Shown here one piece after another: positions 3,577 through 63,831 of a DNA stretch of 64,000 nucleotides. The position numbers and the translations under genes were made by a program. Origin of the DNA: a virus; the IMG/VR virus record IMGVR_UViG_3300020188_000808, positions 203,784 to 267,783 of that record; one strand, 5' to 3'. Position 1 is the first letter of the stretch. Every line of letters begins with the position of its first letter. The notes beneath the pieces were generated by a model. The model was not told where the DNA came from. It saw only the letters and a program-made list of their open reading frames with translations, and did not search any database.

Positions 3577-4461
3577 TTATTGCTGGTTCTGTCCAGCTTC
3601 AGCTTGTTTCATAAGTGCTTTGAACTTACCAAACAGTTGAGGATTAGACATCATACTTTGAATAGCAGTTGCATATGGAGCAATCGCTTTAATAATATTT
3701 GGCGGTAATGTTTCACCTGATGATATTTTATCTAAGCCTTTTGCAACTTGGGCACCACTTGCTTTACCACCAACAACACCTTTTAATGCTGTTGCTTTTT
3801 GTGCAACCTGTTGTGTTTGTTTGTTATCGTCGCCTTTTGCTAAGCCAGTAACTTTGCCAATTACGCCGCCTTGTTCTGCACCAGCTCTTTTGATATCATC
3901 TCTACTAGCACCTGTGGCATTCGCCGCAAAATCTACTGCCTTGTCTGCTACTTTACCTGCAACTTTTTTAACAATGCCTGCACCTGGTGCTTCTTTTACA
4001 AATTTGTTTTTAGCTTTATTAAATCCCTTCCATCCTGTTTCGGGCTTTAATTTAACTGCACCGTCACTCCAATCTGATCCAGTCCATGTCCAAGTTACAG
4101 TACCATCGTTGTATGCACTACCTGGTTTTAAATCATCTATTGTTTTAGGTTGTTTTTGAGTTTGTGCTTTAGGATCTGGTGTCGGTGTTGGTGTTGGTTT
4201 TGCTTTAGTCTTTGTGTCTTTTTTAGAAGTGTCGCCTTTAGCAATCCAATCATCAGTTTCTTTATCGTCAATGCCACCGCCGGGTGCGATTGGTTCTTTA
4301 CTGCCGTGTGCGCCACCAAACTTTTTTGAAAATGCTTTATTTAGATTACTAAGACCTGTACCTAAACGATTGTTGCGAACTAAATCATCTACTTTACCAA
4401 GCGATGCTTTAGTGTTTAACCAACCTCCTGGAGGTGCTTCTACAAGATCTTCAACTTTCAT
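3577..4461 (-). CDS. Putative head-packaged protein with capsid-targeting N-terminus
   Basis: 294 residues, low-complexity and Lys/Ala/Thr/Gly-rich, with a TPTPTP hinge near residue 90 and a Trp-rich patch (TWTWTGSDW) near 125. The N-terminus MKVEDLVEAPPGG contains L-V-E followed by A, matching the T4 prohead-protease rule ([LI]-x-E, then A or G). No enzyme motif is recognised. It is last in the late operon running from 9370 down to here. I infer a structural or internal head protein; the family is otherwise unknown to me. Confidence 0.55.
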   Translation of the reverse strand: MKVEDLVEAPPGGWLNTKASLGKVDDLVRNNRLGTGLSNLNKAFSKKFGGAHGSKEPIAPGGGIDDKETDDWIAKGDTSKKDTKTKAKPTPTPTPDPKAQTQKQPKTIDDLKPGSAYNDGTVTWTWTGSDWSDGAVKLKPETGWKGFNKAKNKFVKEAPGAGIVKKVAGKVADKAVDFAANATGASRDDIKRAGAEQGGVIGKVTGLAKGDDNKQTQQVAQKATALKGVVGGKASGAQVAKGLDKISSGETLPPNIIKAIAPYATAIQSMMSNPQLFGKFKALMKQAEAGQNQQ

Positions 4462-4464
4462 TGA

Positions 4465-5124
4465 CTAAGCCTTTACGCAATTATCAACGGTCTTGCCGCC
4501 TTTTTTCTTAGTACCCATACGCTTGTAGCCTTTCCAGCATACTTTGCCGTCAACGCCTTTTTGTTTTTCTTCGTCAAGTGTAGTGTAACTAGGCTTGCCA
4601 CAATCTTTACATTTACTATTTGCTACTTTTTCGTTTAGCATATTAGCTAATGTGTTTTTGTATGATTCGTTTTTCTTTTTGTCTGCTTTAGAAGCGTGTA
4701 CTGCTTTACGCTGTGCATCGTTCTTGTACTTGCCTTCATTCTTTTGATTTTCTTTGTAGCAATCGCAATGTTCGCAATCAGGTCCGCATTTACATTCTGT
4801 TACAGGCTTTCCGCAACATGCTTCTGGACACATTTTTTCTTTAGCTTCGTTAGCTGTAGATTCTGCTACTTCGTCAAACTTCATTTGGTAGTCTAAGTGA
4901 TGGTAAACACTACCTAAATAATCTGCTGATTTAGTAATTTTAGCTTGTACCCAACCTTCTAAGCCTGCTGACTCGTCAACACCTTTAAGCATTTCGTGTA
5001 GTTTGATACTGTATTTTGCAATTTTGTATAGTTCAGCTCTAGCCATTTGTACTTCATGGTCTGACTCAGCTTTGTAAGCCATGTCTGCTAAACCTTCTTT
5101 TAGTTGTTTTTTATTCATATCCAT
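4465..5124 (-). CDS. Putative head-packaged Cys-rich protein
   Basis: 219 residues from ATG 5124 (an in-frame GTG sits one codon upstream; AGAGAG favours the ATG). The N-terminus MDMNKKQLKEG contains L-K-E before Gly, a candidate prohead-protease site. The middle holds a Cys-rich cluster (CPEACCGKPVTECKCG, then CEHCDCYKE, around residues 96-125), suggesting metal binding. The tail carries KVCWKGYKRMGTKKKGG and a final Cys, a basic Cys/Trp tag like those of its neighbours. It has its own late box at 5144-5151. Function unknown. Confidence 0.55.
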   Translation of the reverse strand: MDMNKKQLKEGLADMAYKAESDHEVQMARAELYKIAKYSIKLHEMLKGVDESAGLEGWVQAKITKSADYLGSVYHHLDYQMKFDEVAESTANEAKEKMCPEACCGKPVTECKCGPDCEHCDCYKENQKNEGKYKNDAQRKAVHASKADKKKNESYKNTLANMLNEKVANSKCKDCGKPSYTTLDEEKQKGVDGKVCWKGYKRMGTKKKGGKTVDNCVKA

Positions 5125-5143
5125 CACTTTATCTCTCTAATAG

Positions 5144-5151
5144 TATTTATC
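5144..5151 (-). promoter_or_regulatory. Late promoter GATAAATA
   Basis: GATAAATA on the minus strand, 19 nt upstream of the ATG at 5124, overlapping the stop codon of the upstream gene. Confidence 0.7.
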
Positions 5152-5377
5152 GTTTAGCTACTTTGCCACCAAAGAAACTGTCTGACGCATCTAGTGCATT
5201 AACCACTGTGCCGTCTGCTTTTTTCTTAGACTTCTTTTTAGGTACACCGTTCTTATCACGTGGTATTTGACCATGTGCATGTACTGGATTTGCCACAGTT
5301 GCTATAGCACCTGCACTAGTACCGCCTGCTGTTGCAGTTTCTTCTAGGTCTTTTTGAAATAGTTCACGTATTAACAT
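5147..5377 (-). CDS. Small putative head-packaged protein
   Basis: 76 residues. The N-terminus MLIRELFQKDLEE closely parallels the start of T4 Alt (MELITELFDE), a head-internal protein, and offers L-E-E as a cleavage site. An Ala/Gly/Thr-rich segment (TSAGAIATVANP) and a Lys-rich segment (KKKSKKK) follow. A GATAAATA late box lies exactly 5 nt before the ATG with no Shine-Dalgarno, predicting leaderless mRNA. Function inferred only from the N-terminus and operon context. Confidence 0.6.
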   Translation of the reverse strand: MLIRELFQKDLEETATAGGTSAGAIATVANPVHAHGQIPRDKNGVPKKKSKKKADGTVVNALDASDSFFGGKVAKR

Positions 5378-5382
5378 AGTAT

Positions 5383-5390
5383 TATTTATC
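5383..5390 (-). promoter_or_regulatory. Late promoter GATAAATA, leaderless arrangement
   Basis: GATAAATA on the minus strand, then ATACT, then the ATG at 5377: 5 nt spacing, the same geometry as at 3549, 9723, 53599 and 58021. Confidence 0.75.
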
Positions 5391-6276
5391 CTGATTTAGC
5401 CATCTTAGTTGCTGTTGCATACATAACTGCTTCAGCATCTTTGCCATAACGCTTTTTAAAGTCACTTTTATTCTTTTTCATACCCTTTACTATGCGTTCT
5501 TTTTCTGCTTCTTCGTCTTTATCTAGTTCACGTTCTTCTACAGGTTTATTAAAGTAATCCTTTAATAGTCCAGCAGTACGCTCGAACTTGTGATCTTTGT
5601 GCTTAAATCCAACTCCACCTTTAGCTTCCCAGTTTCTAATATTAGATCCAAAGTCGTCAATTAGTATGTTAGGTGTACCATCAGGTTGTTTAGCCCACTT
5701 GTATTTGTCTGCGGATATAATAACTTCTTTAGGTGGAAAAAACGCTAAGTTCTTTTTAATCCATTCACGCTTGTGTGGTTCTGCTTTAGGGTCGTTAGCT
5801 AACGGAGCACTTAATATGTTGTACTCTCCTTTTAGCTCTTTAATAATGTTTAATAAGTTTTGAGCATTTTTTGTTAATGGTAATGATAACCAAAAATCAT
5901 CTTTGTCTCTAATTGTTTGTAATGCACTTTCAATGTCTGTAATTTGTCGCCAATCTTTACCTACTATCTTCTTCCAAGCTGGAAAGAAATCAGCTAATAC
6001 TCCGTCCATGTCTACGTATATTTCACTAACTGCTGATAGTTCTTTTGATTTTAATTCTTTTATTTGCGACTCAGTCATCCCCATATTAAATAAAGTATTT
6101 GGTTTTGTATTTTTATGTGCTTTCTTATGCATAGTATACAACGGCTTTCCATCTTTGTCAACCGAATTACCAAATTTCTTTGCTTCAATACTAGTTTGAT
6201 CCACGCCAACATCAGGAGTTGTGTTAACACCTTTTACAATGCGTCCTACGCCTTCTGATATCTCATGCCATCTCAT
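5386..6276 (-). CDS. HAD hydrolase, 5'(3')-deoxyribonucleotidase-like, candidate head-packaged enzyme
   Basis: 296 residues. N-terminus MRWHEISEGVG contains I-S-E before Gly (candidate prohead-protease site). The HAD core begins near residue 85 with YVDMDGVLADFF, the nucleophile motif of 5'(3')-deoxyribonucleotidase-type enzymes; NILSAPL supplies motif II and NILIDDFGSN the acidic motif IV. After about residue 245 comes a basic helical tail ending MYATATKMAKSG. The likely reaction is dephosphorylation of (deoxy)nucleotides, but the substrate is unproven. Start overlaps the preceding gene's stop (ATGA). If packaged, it could act on the host nucleotide pool right after injection. Confidence 0.72.
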   Translation of the reverse strand: MRWHEISEGVGRIVKGVNTTPDVGVDQTSIEAKKFGNSVDKDGKPLYTMHKKAHKNTKPNTLFNMGMTESQIKELKSKELSAVSEIYVDMDGVLADFFPAWKKIVGKDWRQITDIESALQTIRDKDDFWLSLPLTKNAQNLLNIIKELKGEYNILSAPLANDPKAEPHKREWIKKNLAFFPPKEVIISADKYKWAKQPDGTPNILIDDFGSNIRNWEAKGGVGFKHKDHKFERTAGLLKDYFNKPVEERELDKDEEAEKERIVKGMKKNKSDFKKRYGKDAEAVMYATATKMAKSG

Positions 6277-6500
6277 TTCTTTTTACGTCCTCTAAACCCT
6301 TGTGGCATATTTTGGTTAGTCATATAAGGTCTACTAAACCAAAGTTTAAACCAATCTTGATCACCTGGTTTTACACCCATTGCTTTTTCTTTTTTCTTTA
6401 GAGCTGTTGCAGTAATACTAGGATTTTCGTCAATCTTATACTCCGAATAACCTGAGAATTCATTAATCCCTGCTAGTCGTTGTAAAGTTTTAATATCCAT
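6273..6500 (-). CDS. Small protein of the late head-cargo operon
   Basis: 75 residues starting MDIKTLQRLAGINEF, with I-N-E as candidate protease site; the C-terminus is basic (FRGRKKK). Overlaps both neighbours (ATGA downstream, TAATG upstream), so it is translationally coupled. No known domain. Its job is inferred from position among proteins with capsid-targeting N-termini. Confidence 0.5.
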   Translation of the reverse strand: MDIKTLQRLAGINEFSGYSEYKIDENPSITATALKKKEKAMGVKPGDQDWFKLWFSRPYMTNQNMPQGFRGRKKK

Positions 6501-8440
6501 TACTTCTTTCCACTCTTCATGTTAGCACACCAGTGATACATTTTAGCCTTTTCGCCACTTGCATTTTTAGCACGTTTGCGTAGTGCTGTAACACTACCAT
6601 TGCAACTAGCACCTGACTTTTTTACACGCCCTGGTCTGCTTTTACCTTTTTTTTTACCGTCAGCAAAGTTTTCTTCTACATTTTCGTTATGTTTAAAGTA
6701 TTCTATTTGTCCTAGACGCTTTTCAGCCGCTTTACGACTATCGTATGTGCCAAGTTTCTTTTTACCGTCTTTACTGTAGATAACATACTTGTCACCTTGC
6801 TTACGAATAGTTTCTTCTATAGTTTCTTTTTTCTTACCGTCAGCAAAGTTTTCGTCTAGCATGTTTTCTAATACTTCATCTGCCATATGCACACGAGCAT
6901 ACTCTGCACCTGTTAAACGTAGTGCATCATATCTGTGATGTCCGTTTACAATACGTCCTTTGCGATCAATTTGTAAAGGTGCATAATCGTCGTTTAATAC
7001 GTTTACTAGTTGCTTACCTAGTTTATGCCAATGGCGTTCGCTTTGTACAGTTTTAAGTTTGTCTAGTTTAATTTTACCTGGCGACCCAAGTTTCTTTAAC
7101 TGCGGAGGTGCTTTACCGCCTGTGGGTTTGTCATCAAAATGTGCATCTTGATAACCTTGAGCATCTTGTGTTTGATAACCAATACGATTAAGTTGCTTCA
7201 TAAGGTACTTCATTTCTTTAGCACCTGCATAAGGAGCAATCATAATGTCTGGTTCATCTACATTAGATCCTGCTGGCATTGACTTTAGATTAGCTAAATT
7301 AGTACCTAATTTTAAAAAGTCGTATGCTGTGTCTGACTTAGTTAAGAAAGAATTTTTAGGATTAGGAAACATTTTACCTTCGTGGTGTCCTTTTTTAAGA
7401 GGCTTTTTCTTTTTCTTTTCACTAGCATTTAACCCACTTTGAAATGTTGCAAATTTTGCCTTGCCTTGCTCAATTTTTGAGTTAGACGCTGATGGAACAG
7501 AGTCGGAAGGACGTTCGTTAACATCAACTTCTTTAGTTAAGTTAGCTTTAAGTCTATCATATGGGTCTTGTGTTGAAATTTCTTTATTTTTTGGAACTTT
7601 AATACTTACATTAATGTTTAAGTTATTGAATAAGTTCTTAACACCGTTAACACTTTTTAGTGCTTTTTGCATTAGTTCTTTTTCATCTTCAGCTCTACTA
7701 TCGTAAAACTTAATAAATTTCTGTGCTTCTTGTGGAGTAATTAATACTTCACCACCGCTACTTGCACCACCTGTATCTTTATAACTTAATGGAAAAGGCA
7801 TACTGTCTTTTCTATCAGCAATGTTATATAATACTTCAATCTTTGGTCGTTGTTGCTTTACACTATATTCATCTAAACTTTCATCAACAATGCCCATGCC
7901 TTTTCTAACTTGGTCATACATTTGCTGTGCCATCTGTGCATTAGCAACACCTTGTTTGAAACTATCAAAGTCACCTTCTTGTGCCGCGGCTCTCATTTTA
8001 CTTGCACTCATGCCTTCAGCACCATCTGCATCAGGATCACGTTCGCCTGCACTTACAATGTTAATACTGTTAAAGTTATAGTCTTTACCGTTGTAGTCAT
8101 TTAATAATTTAGTAAATGAATCAACTCTGTCTGAACCTGCTACATATATAATATCTGTATAGCCTTTAGCTTCTAGACTTTGCATAGCTTGGATAATAGT
8201 TTTTACTTTAGGATCACCTATTTCAATACCTGGAAAACTTTTAGATGCAAAGTACATCTTTTCTGGGAATGGTAGTGGATCTGTTTTAGGTTTTTGTGTT
8301 TGACTTAAAAATAAAAAAGGATCGCCCTTTTGTGATTTTACTACGTCAGCTAATTTAGCATGTCCAATAGTTGGAGGATTCATTCTTCCAAATGCAAACA
8401 CCGCAGTCTTAGGTGCTTCAAAAAGCTCACGTAAAAGCAT
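6500..8440 (-). CDS. Nucleotidyltransferase (NMN-adenylyltransferase-like) fused to ParB-like domain
   Basis: 646 residues. N-terminus MLLRELFEAPK gives L-F-E before Ala, a textbook T4-type prohead cleavage site. The enzyme domain starts at once: FAFGRMNPPTIGH (nucleotide-binding HxGH-like motif) and, near residue 160, MSASKMRAAA (the ISSTxIR-like motif of NMNAT/cytidylyltransferases). After a long basic linker, IVNGHHRYDALRLTG near residue 510 resembles the ParB/sulfiredoxin nuclease-like motif. ENFADGKKK occurs twice in the C-terminal part, followed by a basic Cys/Trp tag (YHWCANMKSGKK). The likely activity is adenylyl transfer to a nicotinamide nucleotide (NAD synthesis), inferred from motifs. 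Confidence 0.75.
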   Translation of the reverse strand: MLLRELFEAPKTAVFAFGRMNPPTIGHAKLADVVKSQKGDPFLFLSQTQKPKTDPLPFPEKMYFASKSFPGIEIGDPKVKTIIQAMQSLEAKGYTDIIYVAGSDRVDSFTKLLNDYNGKDYNFNSINIVSAGERDPDADGAEGMSASKMRAAAQEGDFDSFKQGVANAQMAQQMYDQVRKGMGIVDESLDEYSVKQQRPKIEVLYNIADRKDSMPFPLSYKDTGGASSGGEVLITPQEAQKFIKFYDSRAEDEKELMQKALKSVNGVKNLFNNLNINVSIKVPKNKEISTQDPYDRLKANLTKEVDVNERPSDSVPSASNSKIEQGKAKFATFQSGLNASEKKKKKPLKKGHHEGKMFPNPKNSFLTKSDTAYDFLKLGTNLANLKSMPAGSNVDEPDIMIAPYAGAKEMKYLMKQLNRIGYQTQDAQGYQDAHFDDKPTGGKAPPQLKKLGSPGKIKLDKLKTVQSERHWHKLGKQLVNVLNDDYAPLQIDRKGRIVNGHHRYDALRLTGAEYARVHMADEVLENMLDENFADGKKKETIEETIRKQGDKYVIYSKDGKKKLGTYDSRKAAEKRLGQIEYFKHNENVEENFADGKKKGKSRPGRVKKSGASCNGSVTALRKRAKNASGEKAKMYHWCANMKSGKK

Positions 8441-8778
8441 TAGTACTCTCCGTCTCTAAGTGCTTCCATTTCTTCACTACAAATTACTTCTGCTAAAGAT
8501 TTATATTCTTCTTTAGTTAAAAGTTTTGTAGGATCTTTTGAAATGTTAAATTTATTACAATACTGTTCACAGCATCTATCAATCATAGGTGATAAATCTT
8601 GAGGTACTGGACTTTTGCCGCCTTTTAATTTATCTTGTAGTTTTGCCATTGTTGGATAATACTGTTTGCGATAGAACATTGGGTCGTTCTTCATAAACAC
8701 TTGTAAGTCGCCAATGACATCAAATCCTAACTCATTTTCTTTTGTTGGGTCTAAATCTGCAAACTCAGTTATTTTCAT
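8440..8778 (-). CDS. Conserved phage protein of the late head-cargo operon
   Basis: 112 residues from ATG 8778, chosen because it follows the upstream stop by 1 nt; the ORF extends to 8850 only by overlapping the previous gene. The N-terminus MKITEFADLDPT contains I-T-E. The body is helical with a DPMFYRKQYYPTMAKLQDKL motif and Cys pairs (RCCEQYC). The family seems common in marine T4-like phages; function unknown. Stop overlaps the next gene's ATG (TAATG). Confidence 0.65.
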   Translation of the reverse strand: MKITEFADLDPTKENELGFDVIGDLQVFMKNDPMFYRKQYYPTMAKLQDKLKGGKSPVPQDLSPMIDRCCEQYCNKFNISKDPTKLLTKEEYKSLAEVICSEEMEALRDGEY

Positions 8779-8779
8779 A

Positions 8780-9370
8780 TTACCACTTCCTACATGACCA
8801 GTAACGTGCCTTAGTACGTGGTCCTGGATTATCACAGTTGTGTCTAGCACGGAAACTTCTTCTACGTGCTGGATTAGACTTTTTAATACTCATTGCCTTA
8901 CCTTTGACACTTGATCCACCGTGTCCAAAGTTTACTTTTTTAACATTTCCTGTTTTAGGATCTTTTACATATACCTTAAACTTCTTAACATCACCTTGCA
9001 TAGGTTTACCAAGTTTTACTTTACGTCCTTGATATTCTGCTTCGTCTACAATATCATCTTCGTTATACCACATAACACCGTACTGTTCATAAAACTCATC
9101 ATCATCGTCATAAGTTTCTTCAATAATATCTTCGCCAAGCCCTGCACTAATTTCAATATCAAAGTCATCGTAACCTTGTTCGAACATGTAGTTTGCTAGT
9201 CTGTTAGCATACTCGTTTGATTCGTCTTCTGAAAGTTGTTTTGGTAAAGCAATTTCCCATGCTGTACCACCTTGCTCAGTTTCGTAAAGATTTTGATCAG
9301 GAAAGATACTTTCGTCTAACAACTTAGTTGTTTCCTGTTTTTCCATTACTATTCTTACAAAATGTTCCAT
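8780..9370 (-). CDS. Putative head-packaged protein, acidic with basic Cys/Trp tail
   Basis: 196 residues. First gene of the operon, with AGGAG about 7 nt before ATG 9370. The N-terminal region includes L18-D19-E20 before Ser, a weaker match to the prohead-protease rule. Residues 70-115 are strongly acidic; the C-terminal half is basic and ends in an Arg-rich stretch (ARRRSFRARHNC, then KARYWSCRKW) with paired Cys and Trp, a tag type I associate with proteins of marine T4-like phages. No catalytic domain is recognised. Acidic-then-basic layout is compatible with DNA binding inside the head. Confidence 0.55.
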   Translation of the reverse strand: MEHFVRIVMEKQETTKLLDESIFPDQNLYETEQGGTAWEIALPKQLSEDESNEYANRLANYMFEQGYDDFDIEISAGLGEDIIEETYDDDDEFYEQYGVMWYNEDDIVDEAEYQGRKVKLGKPMQGDVKKFKVYVKDPKTGNVKKVNFGHGGSSVKGKAMSIKKSNPARRRSFRARHNCDNPGPRTKARYWSCRKW

Positions 9371-9721: not shown

Positions 9722-10378
9722 TTATTTATCTAGATCTTTACTACTTATAATTTTATCAATTCTCATCAAATCCTTCTTTAAGAACAATCTAATTAAGGTT
9801 ATAGTGGCAAAATCTTTAACATACATGTACATACCTTTGAGATTATATCCGCGTTGTATGTTACTTAATACTCTATTACCTATCTTAATTTTACTTTTAT
9901 GTTTGATGCAGAAGTTCGCAAGGTTCGGATCAGCAGTTCCGTTAAGTGTAATTTTATAACCAAAGTCTATAGTATCATTAATAATAATATTAGGGGTTAA
10001 GATTGCATTATCTTTGGGCATGTGTACTACGCAAACTGCGTTTAGTTTACTAGTTATAGTTTTAACCCATTCATAGTTATTAGTGTATATTCCTAAGTGA
10101 TAACTTTCACAACGAATTTTAAAATTTTCTTTTTGTTTTATGAATAACGAAAGTAATATCTGTAGATCGGATAGTTCTTCAGAAGTAACATTTACTGTTC
10201 TAAATCCAGACCCCCATTTAACAAAACCTTCAGCTTCGTATTGTTGAATAGCAGTATCGATAGACTTTCTTGCATGAGAAAAGTTTTTATTTCTAAAAAC
10301 AAAGCCTAATGCATTATGAAAGTCTACCTTATACTTGTATTGATCGTAGAATAGTTTATGAGAATCAACTTTTATCAA
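9722..10378 (-). CDS. Conserved marine-phage protein, unknown
   Basis: 218 residues, mixed alpha/beta, rich in Lys, Ile and Asn. An N-terminal HKLFYDQYKYKVDF segment resembles an uncharacterised family I believe recurs in marine phages. No catalytic signature or membrane segment is evident. It overlaps the 3' end of the ClpA-like gene by 14 nt, so it is the last gene of the dnaJ-def-clpA operon. Function unknown. Confidence 0.55.
   Translation of the reverse strand: MIKVDSHKLFYDQYKYKVDFHNALGFVFRNKNFSHARKSIDTAIQQYEAEGFVKWGSGFRTVNVTSEELSDLQILLSLFIKQKENFKIRCESYHLGIYTNNYEWVKTITSKLNAVCVVHMPKDNAILTPNIIINDTIDFGYKITLNGTADPNLANFCIKHKSKIKIGNRVLSNIQRGYNLKGMYMYVKDFATITLIRLFLKKDLMRIDKIISSKDLDK
9723..9730 (-). 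promoter_or_regulatory. Late promoter GATAAATA, leaderless arrangement
   Basis: GATAAATA on the minus strand followed by 5 nt (ACTAT) and the ATG at 9717. Probably also feeds the 9370-3577 operon downstream. Confidence 0.75.
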
Positions 10379-61901: not shown

Positions 61902-62416
61902 TATTTAAACCTCGCTTGTATAGTTACTCTTGTTTGTTTAGCCCACGGAGTGATAGCACTCACACTATGTTGTGTTGGGTGTTGTCTATTGTCATTAAGT
62001 ATTAATCTATTAAATTTTGGCTCTTGTGCTAGTATCTTGTCATCTTCTTTATACAAGAACAATCCGCCGTCTGCTGAATCCCAATGTTGATTAAGGTAAA
62101 TTGTACCACTTGCTATATACCCTGCATCGTCATGCCAGTCTAACATACTGTTCCTATTCCACAAGTATATAAATGCTTCAAATTTTAGATCACTGTAGAA
62201 TGGATTTAAGTTTACAAATTGTTTGCGTAATTCTTTATGTGTATTATCTGACACTGGACTCATGTTAGCACTATTTGCACCTTCAACAACAATACCTTCC
62301 CAACTGTGACTGGTAGCCCAAACAGCTTCTGACGACTGGATTTTTGTTTTAATCTCAGTTGCTATGCTGTCAATTAATTTTTGACTTAGGAAATTATCTT
62401 CTACGAGTATTGCCAT
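61901..62416 (-). CDS. 2OG-Fe(II) oxygenase
   Basis: 171 residues. WHDDAG provides HxD, QHSVSAI the distal His and TRVTIQARF the Arg; GGLFLY the core strand. Different subfamily from the PF13759-like copies. The 5' end overlaps the KdsB gene end by 23 nt, linking it to Kdo synthesis in one operon. Confidence 0.8.
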   Translation of the reverse strand: MAILVEDNFLSQKLIDSIATEIKTKIQSSEAVWATSHSWEGIVVEGANSANMSPVSDNTHKELRKQFVNLNPFYSDLKFEAFIYLWNRNSMLDWHDDAGYIASGTIYLNQHWDSADGGLFLYKEDDKILAQEPKFNRLILNDNRQHPTQHSVSAITPWAKQTRVTIQARFK

Positions 62417-63089
62417 TTAGTTTGTTCCATTGTTCTAATTCTTCTGGTGTGTTAATTTCCATTCCGCTAAACTCACAAGGAAGTACACCAATATTCCATC
62501 CGTTCTTTAACCAACGAAGCTGTTCTAAACTTTCGTGGCGTTCTTCTTTTGTAACAATTAAGTTATCGTATTGTTCTAATGCTTTACGTTTGTAACCGTA
62601 AATACCTAAATGCCAATCACCGTAGCCAGTCATGCCTCTCCCAAACCATAAACACTTACCTGCACCTCTAACTAGTTTAACTGTGTGAGGGTCGTTCTGT
62701 TTTTCTTCTGGCATCATTGCACACATTGTGGACACATCATAGTCTTTTAAGTTACTTAATGTTCCTTCAATCATATCTAGTGTAACATCGGGCATGTCGC
62801 CTTGTACGTTAATAAATGTATCGTACTTGCTAAAAAACTCGTGCTTAACTGCACCTGCACACCGTTCTGTGCCGTTTGCATAATCCTTTTGTTCAATAAA
62901 ACATGTGTCAGCATTGAACTGATTGTACACTTGCATACTGTCAGTTAGTACATATGTTGGTATCTTAGACGCAATACAAGCGTCATACACACGTCTAATC
63001 ATAGTCTTAGCACCCAACATAGCTAGTGGTTTGCCCGGTAAGCGTGTACTAGCAAATCTAGCCGGTATAAGAATAGCTGTGGATTTCAT
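62394..63089 (-). CDS. kdsB: CMP-Kdo synthetase, 3-deoxy-manno-octulosonate cytidylyltransferase
   Basis: 231 residues, close to the usual 245. IPARFASTRLPGKPLAML is the KdsB CTP-binding start (IPARxxSTRLPGKPL); FINVQGDMPDV the QGDxP metal motif, GIYGYKRKALEQY the substrate end. Activates Kdo with CTP for LPS core assembly in the cytoplasm. Overlaps KdsA by 32 nt. Confidence 0.92.
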   Translation of the reverse strand: MKSTAILIPARFASTRLPGKPLAMLGAKTMIRRVYDACIASKIPTYVLTDSMQVYNQFNADTCFIEQKDYANGTERCAGAVKHEFFSKYDTFINVQGDMPDVTLDMIEGTLSNLKDYDVSTMCAMMPEEKQNDPHTVKLVRGAGKCLWFGRGMTGYGDWHLGIYGYKRKALEQYDNLIVTKEERHESLEQLRWLKNGWNIGVLPCEFSGMEINTPEELEQWNKLNGNTRRR

Positions 63090-63831
63090 CTACTACCCTT
63101 TCAAAATCATTTAGTTTTAACATATTAGGCCCATCGCTAGGTGCATTGTCTGGGTCGTCGTGTACTTCTAAGAAAAAGTTTGTTACACCTAGAGCGGAAG
63201 CGGCACGAGACAAGCCAGGCACATACCCGCGATTGCCGCCACTACTATCGCCGTTACCCCCTGGCTTTTGTACCGAGTGAGTAACATCATAAACGATAGG
63301 AACGCTATAATTATCAAGCATATACTGAATGCCGGTGAAGTCAGTAACCAAAGTATTGTATCCAAAACTAGTACCCCTTTCTGTGATCCATACTTCTTTA
63401 GCACCTTCTGTTTTGCTTAATATGCCGTTGACGTCCCAAGGTGCAAGGAACTGTCCTTTTTTAATATTAACAATTTTGTCTGTTTCACATACCGCTTGTA
63501 TCAAATCAGTTTGCCTACAAAGGAATGCAGGTATTTGTAATACATCTACTGCATCATTAAAATATTCTGTAATCTTTTCAATTTGATCAATGTCATGTAC
63601 GTCAGTAAGTGTCAAACAATCTACATTATCTTTAATAATATTAAAATCATTTAGAGTATTAACAAGTCCAACACCACGCTTACCTTGCATACTACTTCTA
63701 TTGGCTTTATCAAAACTTGCTTTGAATATATATTCTATATCATACTTTCTACATACATCTGCACAATGTTGTGCAATCATTAAACTATGTTCTAACGATT
63801 CGTGTTGGCATGGTCCTGCAATAATTCTCAT
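63058..63831 (-). CDS. kdsA: Kdo-8-phosphate synthase
   Basis: 257 residues. IAGPCQHESLEHSL (PEP-binding GPC...E), IFKASFDKANRSS, TDVHD and QIPAFLCRQTDLI are KdsA motifs. Condenses phosphoenolpyruvate with arabinose-5-P to Kdo-8-P, the committed step of Kdo. Kdo-8-P phosphatase is not seen here. Forms an operon with KdsB and the AbrB-like gene (ATGA overlap at 63828). Confidence 0.92.
   Translation of the reverse strand: MRIIAGPCQHESLEHSLMIAQHCADVCRKYDIEYIFKASFDKANRSSMQGKRGVGLVNTLNDFNIIKDNVDCLTLTDVHDIDQIEKITEYFNDAVDVLQIPAFLCRQTDLIQAVCETDKIVNIKKGQFLAPWDVNGILSKTEGAKEVWITERGTSFGYNTLVTDFTGIQYMLDNYSVPIVYDVTHSVQKPGGNGDSSGGNRGYVPGLSRAASALGVTNFFLEVHDDPDNAPSDGPNMLKLNDFERVVDEIHSYSYTG

Follow-up and report, generated by a model that had tools for sequence, protein, structure and literature searches.

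The final 64,000 nucleotides of the 267,783-base IMG/VR virus record IMGVR_UViG_3300020188_000808 (positions 203,784 to 267,783; hereafter, the window) belong to a large marine virus of bacteria and contain, at positions 3577-9370, a cluster of eight open reading frames (ORFs). This cluster is probably a late operon of a T4-superfamily phage encoding head cargo, that is, proteins that would be targeted to the head by short N-terminal leaders and processed by the prohead protease. The initial annotation of this DNA suggested that the phage may load a set of enzymes into its head, and this suggestion is now supported by the identification of a protease gene, by the selective conservation of the leaders, and by the detection of homologs in the virions of four phages. 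The positions and motifs of the ORFs match those in that annotation. The eight genes are listed below, with the predicted cleavage sites marked by a slash and protein lengths in amino acids (aa).

3577..4461, minus strand: 294-aa cargo protein; leader MKVEDLVE/APPGG (codons 4438-4461); Glu precedes APPGG in 7/7 cases
4465..5124, minus strand: 218-220-aa cargo protein; leader MDMNKKQLKE/GLADMA; possible inner sites LNE/KVANS and LDE/EKQKG before a basic C-terminal cassette, WKGYKRMGTKKKGG
5147..5377, minus strand: 76-aa cargo protein; leader MLIRELFQKDLEE / TATAGGTSAGAIAT
5386..6276, minus strand: 296-aa cargo protein; leader MRWHEISE/G; HAD domain at ~residues 83-243; basic C-terminal cassette, KKRYGKDAEAVMYATATKMAK
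6273..6500, minus strand: 75-aa cargo protein; leader MDIKTLQRLAGINE/F
6500..8440, minus strand: 646-aa cargo protein; leader MLLRELFE/A (8417-8440)
8440..8778, minus strand: 112-aa cargo protein; leader MKITE/F, the weakest of the eight
8780..9370, minus strand: 196-aa cargo protein; leader MEHFVRIVMEKQETTKLLDE/SIF; acidic N-terminal part (net charge -26) and basic C-terminal cassette (net charge +21)

Conservation of the leaders

All eight products contain an [LI]-x-E site within about 20 residues of the N-terminus (LVE/A, LKE/G, LEE/T, ISE/G, INE/F, LFE/A, ITE/F and LDE/S), and two of them start with MLxRELF (MLIRELF and MLLRELF), just as the initial annotation described. When Glu is required at residue 20 or earlier, the motif is found in 8/8 ORFs of the cluster compared with 17 of the 96 other ORFs in the remainder of the window and in 40 kb of the same genome (two 20-kb stretches; binomial 1e-6, Fisher 4e-6). 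Because the 20-residue limit was chosen by the earlier reader, a test on orthologs is preferable to this test against chance.

Three scans of IMG/VR yielded 237 loci with relatives, and the distinct orthologs were scored against shuffled N-termini. The site is present in 97% of the orthologs of the 646-aa cytidylyltransferase (19% after shuffling), 77% of those of the HAD protein (11%), 79% for the 112-aa protein (21%) and 72% for the 196-aa protein (34%). The remaining families show the site in 9/9 orthologs (294-aa protein; 25% after shuffling), 56% (218-aa protein; 25%), 56% (76-aa protein; 16%) and 53% (75-aa protein; 35%). The six flanking control families (2OG oxygenase, f112, f218, ClpA, deformylase and DnaJ) show it in 0-12% of the orthologs, about the shuffled level or below. 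Conservation of the leaders is therefore selective, being seen in the eight cargo families but not in the neighboring ones. Given that orthologs are related by descent, similar sequences were collapsed into clusters, after which the signal is still strong for the cytidylyltransferase (14/16 clusters, 0.88), the 196-aa protein (24/33, 0.73) and the 112-aa protein (40/52); the flanking ClpA family yields 3/5, with five clusters only.

The leader sequences themselves are variable (for example, MFLRELFE, MRLRQLYE, MKITDLME and MKFKDITE), and it is the Glu and the residues following it that are kept. In the orthologs of the 196-aa protein, [LI][DN]E/S[IV]F is retained despite the variable leader length; VME/K, a candidate site in the same protein, was dropped in favor of LDE/S. 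As a set, the leaders are well supported. That of the 112-aa gene is doubtful, consisting of five residues (ITE/F), which is short for a targeting sequence, and missing the Glu in some orthologs.

The prohead protease and detection of homologs in virions

The initial annotation proposed looking for a protease of the T4 gp21 type outside the window, where one was indeed found, in a head module that also contains the portal, scaffold and major capsid protein genes.

G000:99637-100095: gp21-family protease (Peptidase_S77, PF03420, E 4.5e-27, over the curated cut-off; phrog_207, 1.1e-57)

The major capsid protein has a predicted maturation site, KWLNE/TATAGSTSAGNVAT, that aligns ~10 residues from the known cut in T4 gp23; in a set of 80 retrieved relatives, L[SAN]E/[TS]ATAG is retained, exactly or with slight variation. 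The scaffold (L009:10392-11495; relatives L252-L331) ends in a near-invariant [VI][VI]D[IL][RK]RLAG[LI], with the remainder diverging to ~55% identity, and two other large proteins in the loci have similar ends (ELTGLRKLAGLSK and SINTIRRLAGLA). Between the portal and the protease, there is a very acidic protein with tandem EATDEEVDESSDDEETN repeats (L009:12160-13119), possibly the counterpart of the T4 core proteins gp67/gp68.

Mass spectrometry of S-CREM2 virions detected, among other proteins, a leader-bearing cytidylyltransferase (PMC10665884). Among the nonstructural proteins in the two S-CREM2 stretches examined, a motif resembling the T4 capsid-targeting sequence (CTS) is present in 5/13 detected vs 2/129 undetected proteins (Fisher 5e-5), and 7/13 vs 11/129 have [LI]xE with its Glu no later than residue 13 (2e-4). 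The leaders of the detected proteins include those of a SAM hydrolase (MKDFDSFLEE/F), a kinase (VKRFDAFLTE/E), a 78-aa protein (MKDLHSFLTE/Q) and the cytidylyltransferase (MKNFSSFLTE/A). In these leaders, positions 4 and 7 are hydrophobic, position 8 is Leu and position 10 is Glu. In T4 IPIII, the first 10 residues suffice, residues 4 and 7 being responsible for targeting and residues 8 and 10 allowing processing (PMC9026906). Five S-CREM2 proteins match these key positions (4, 7, 8 and 10) exactly, of which four (gp6, gp13, gp14 and gp154) were detected in virions and one was not.

Cytidylyltransferases with leaders were also detected in the virions of S-SM1 (MKKFSAFLNE/A; PMC3037559), S-SZBM1 (MRFRQFIIE/A; PMC9146016) and S-SCSM1 (ORF91, MKSFLQFLKE/A; PMC9602691). 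By eye, the S-SM1 and S-SCSM1 leaders fit the T4 key positions, and the 8-residue leaders of the phage analyzed here are spaced differently. In S-SCSM1, the products of the cargo operon, ORF89-93, are all flagged as virion proteins, and so is ORF97 (PMC9602691). The presence of related tagged proteins in the purified particles of cultured relatives implies that the enzymes probably travel inside the particle. The excerpts of the proteomic papers on virion cytidylyltransferases make no mention of a leader or cleavage, and a literature search of open-licence papers yielded no description of cyanophage targeting leaders, propeptides or phage cargo polyproteins.

There are also possible variants of the leader arrangement. 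The 69-aa virion-flagged ORF93 of S-SCSM1 (L338, MK867354.2; 36627-36836) has KRTFKEFLEYIE at its C-terminus, as if a targeting sequence had been placed there rather than at the N-terminus. The virion-detected Cas9-like nuclease gp12 of S-CREM2 (L011, OR473000; 7704-10313) contains LRFASFMAE/A at residues 17-25, and a translation start at residue 17 would make this an ordinary leader; S-CRM01 g128 (L333:878-1429) has a similar delayed leader.

Module joints, apparent capsid-part copies and gene layout

The N-terminal sites reported in the initial annotation are indeed there; what it missed are similar sites inside the longer proteins, and these may be just as important. Several sequence cassettes are found in two settings, either immediately following the leader or, in other genes, within a longer protein. 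Because these cassettes are nearly always preceded by Glu, usually within hydrophobic-x-Glu, both after leaders and internally, the larger cargo proteins look like polyproteins cut at module joints, an arrangement that is new here. The NFADGKKK cassette is preceded by Glu in 8/8 N-terminal and 80/80 inner cases. For NFADG overall, Glu precedes the cassette in 104/104 cases, and the P3 position is hydrophobic in 67%, compared with 9-30% at other positions; upstream of the cassette, the positions are otherwise unconserved. AEYQG follows Glu in 105/108 cases and hydrophobic-x-Glu in 104/108 (P3 hydrophobic in 99%), TATAG-type cassettes follow Glu in 33/33 (82%), and GLADMA does so in 47/56 N-terminal cases and in 25/25 internal cases in other genes. 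A blind test on module boundaries obtained by all-against-all BLAST was noisy when unfiltered (0.39 vs 0.22); repeated with better-supported boundaries, it found hydrophobic-x-Glu within five residues of 56% of 234 boundaries vs 22% for random positions. Similar joints are present in the cultured phages Melnitz, C48C1 and HTVC008M. Predicted or possible sites at the joints of the 646-aa and 196-aa proteins include the following.

7880..7882, minus strand: Glu187 of the 646-aa protein; possible inner site VDE/SLDE/Y after the nucleotidyltransferase, in the low-confidence linker 186-198
6851..6853, minus strand: Glu530 of the 646-aa protein; predicted inner site LDE/NFADGKKK
6671..6673, minus strand: Glu590 of the 646-aa protein; predicted inner site VEE/NFADGKKKGKSRPG, opening the basic C-terminal cassette (net charge +15)
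9041..9043, minus strand: Glu110 of the 196-aa protein; predicted inner site VDE/AEYQG, between the acidic and basic halves

In the structural model of the 646-aa protein, the low-confidence linkers contain 7/9 inner sites but also 20/38 Glu residues, so that the placement in linkers is weak support. In the 196-aa protein, the acidic half, joined to the basic half at VDE/AEYQG, may shield the latter until cleavage. A sequence search of the genome found the cassettes and the capsid arm nowhere beyond the known places. The cassette SFRARHNC...YWSC is likewise present in small proteins from podo- and siphophages that infect marine bacteria (HTVC111P, CRP-901 and Kolga), and hence is not confined to T4-like phages.

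Some of the cargo appears to copy parts of the capsid. The portion of the 76-aa protein after the site, TATAGGTSAGAIAT, resembles the mature N-terminal arm of the phage's own capsid protein (local alignment score 65 vs a maximum of 53 in 1000 shuffles). S-SCSM1 ORF97, a 61-aa virion protein from the same neighborhood, copies the capsid arm of its own phage, AVGAGGFTGSSAAEGPTAGYDPLM, which is unlike the one copied here (83 vs 46, 500 shuffles). This apparent copy of the capsid arm, with its virion-detected analog in S-SCSM1, is new here. In addition, the leader of the 75-aa protein, MDIKTLQRLAGINE, resembles the near-invariant C-terminus of the scaffold, VDIRRLAGL. Such likenesses point to mimicry as a possible means of docking to the shell or core.

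Among the cargo genes, Pfam and PHROGs assign functions to the HAD protein and the nucleotidyltransferase only, in line with the initial annotation, which took them for deoxyribonucleotidase-like and NMN-adenylyltransferase-like proteins, respectively. Profile and fold agree that the HAD domain of the 296-aa protein is a predicted deoxyribonucleotidase of the NT5C type: PF06941 (NT5C) matches at 2.3e-7, over the cut-off, and a Foldseek search with the AlphaFold model places 3bwv first, followed by the cdN/mdN deoxyribonucleotidases. The 646-aa protein, to judge from its profile matches and model, carries an NMNAT/CoaD-type nucleotidyltransferase (~residues 10-181), a ParB-like domain and a basic C-terminal cassette; the first of these rests on phrog_3041 (1e-55), NadD/CoaD matches in Foldseek and a TxGH motif in GRMNPPTIGH, with a Pfam match slightly below the cut-off. 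The basic cassettes have net charges of +15, +21 and +8, which would suit DNA binding. It is our guess that the cargo acts early on nucleotides or NAD after ejection.

The description of the genes as all overlapping holds only in part: they are closely packed, with 3/7 joints overlapping by 1-4 bases and the rest 1-25 bases apart. Their description as late genes is borne out by T4-type late promoter sequences that precede the flanking gene f112, the 76-aa gene, the 220-aa gene and the tail-fiber genes alike, so that late expression is predicted. The heptamer ATAAATA occurs 14 times on the minus strand vs twice on the plus strand.

9722..9731, minus strand: T4-type late promoter sequence AGATAAATAA, before f112 and the cargo genes
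5382..5391, minus strand: T4-type late promoter sequence GGATAAATAA, before the 76-aa gene
5143..5152, minus strand: T4-type late promoter sequence CGATAAATAC, before the 220-aa gene

A search for DNA similarity to phage records gave no direct match. Elsewhere in the window, at 62394-63831, two adjoining genes resemble, by sequence alone, KdsB and KdsA of the CMP-KDO pathway, which suggests that the phage has lipopolysaccharide-sugar genes.

Alternative explanations and relationship to known systems

Several observations weigh against the packaging and processing of the cargo as proposed here. The orthologs are not independent, and after collapsing, the support is weaker for the HAD protein (8/18 clusters, 0.44) and the 218-aa protein (12/35, 0.34). 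The 8-residue leaders of this phage do not have the exact hydrophobic spacing of T4. In the S-SCSM1 stretch, leaders defined by the simple rule are found in 4/7 virion-flagged nonstructural proteins (Fisher 0.03) and those defined by the CTS rule in 1/7; in S-SZBM1, a detected neighbor (139) has no leader, and the authors of the proteomic studies consider co-purification as a possible cause of detection. As for the inner sites, the start of the HAD domain was dropped as a cut site, with P3 hydrophobic in just 9%; only 37/58 homologs have the site that follows the nucleotidyltransferase; and the Glu before a cassette could belong to the cassette. The likeness of the 75-aa leader to the scaffold is short and may be due to chance.

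It is a substantial possibility that the proteins are packaged and lose their leaders but stay uncut inside, the modules being ordinary fused domains and the Glu the first residue of each cassette. The invariance of Glu before NFADG is what one would expect of a domain residue, the joints after the nucleotidyltransferase and before the HAD domain are not reliably protease-like, and T4 Alt is reported to lose terminal propeptides only (PMC9026906). However, P3 is specifically enriched in hydrophobic residues (67-99%), with L, I, V and M interchangeable, and the same rule applies before unrelated cassettes and at the capsid protein's own site; the boundary test (0.56 vs 0.22) and, subject to the frequency of Glu in linkers, the location of the inner sites also point to cutting. 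We consider inner processing by the protease likely.

The notion that the proteins are not packaged at all, with the motif forming an amphipathic helix for partner or membrane binding and with abundant late proteins co-purifying with virions, appears unlikely. The proteomics authors could not rule out co-purification, and some virion-flagged neighbors come without a leader, but the leaders end in a protease motif rather than being merely helical, recur on unrelated proteins, are over-represented among the detected nonstructural proteins of S-CREM2, and do not occur in the flanking families. With a targeting leader in common, the detected proteins are more likely to be truly packaged. Least of all would we expect the leaders to be chance matches to a motif of low information: roughly one protein in six does have [LI]xE close to its start (17/96 in the background), and the 112-aa gene has a short leader that is not always retained, but such matches would hardly account for 8/8 in the cluster or for conservation of 72-97% in four large families vs 0-12% in the flanking controls.

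Under the favored scenario of leader-targeted, protease-processed cargo, each product would enter the prohead core via its N-terminal capsid-targeting leader of ~8-20 residues, and, as the head matures, the gp21-type protease would cleave the leader off after [LI]-x-E. In the larger products, this protease probably cuts at the module joints as well, freeing pieces such as the basic cassettes. The mature enzymes and the small basic proteins would then stay in the DNA-filled head and probably be ejected with the DNA. For this phage, we infer the cleavage, loading, inner cuts, ejection and host function; packaging is supported by the homologs, whereas injection is the presumed outcome. More broadly, it could be, at somewhat less than an even chance, that marine T4-like phages carry head cargo as modular polyproteins that are imported by leaders and cut at hydrophobic-x-Glu joints, with some dockings mediated by copied capsid parts (the 76-aa protein, ORF97 and the 75-aa leader). 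If each joint is cut, modules could be shuffled between genes and, with the modules cut apart in the head, a simple route would be open to swap and add injected functions.

Studies of cyanophage virions repeatedly find enzymes that are called possible co-purification; the shared leader offers a sequence rule instead. This rule predicts which marine phage genes encode head-carried products, as well as exact new N-termini and inner cut sites, and the predicted termini could be sought in existing mass-spectrometry data. Cyanomyoviruses have been reported to lack alt (PMC2984593), and our observations suggest that marine T4-like phages without Alt may still carry candidate injected enzymes.

Among the known systems, the polyvalent proteins of phages and conjugative elements (PMC5512222) are similar to the cargo in that they fuse unlike domains, including ParB-like ones, and are thought to be delivered with DNA; in contrast to those proteins, the cargo tends to have a prohead-protease site at its module joints, with a T4-type leader as the entry tag. 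A Pfam search of the cargo gave no metallopeptidase, MuF or portal domain at E 0.1 or better, a further difference from the polyvalent proteins. The ejection proteins of phiKZ/SPN3US-type phages (PMC5694885) are likewise head cargo processed by a prohead protease, but several of their propeptides exceed 100 residues, only one has the length of a T4 CTS, and these phages are outside the T4 superfamily. Further counterparts are the cytidylyltransferase/NMNAT-like proteins (T4-GC190) in the virions of S-SM1, S-SZBM1, S-CREM2 and S-SCSM1, with a homologous nucleotidyltransferase in a similar neighborhood; the protein described here is larger and has extra modules. A parallel is also provided by T4 IPI-IPIII and Alt, which share with the cargo a short N-terminal leader ending in L/I-x-E, late expression, a gp21-family protease and presumed ejection, and whose key positions 4, 7, 8 and 10 are matched exactly by cyanophage leaders. 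Unlike in T4, the mature parts here match a nucleotidyltransferase, a deoxyribonucleotidase-like HAD protein and a ParB-like domain rather than IPs or an ADP-ribosyltransferase, and the phage adds to the T4 scheme its own 8-residue leader spacing, apparent module joints with protease sites and a putative copy of the capsid arm.

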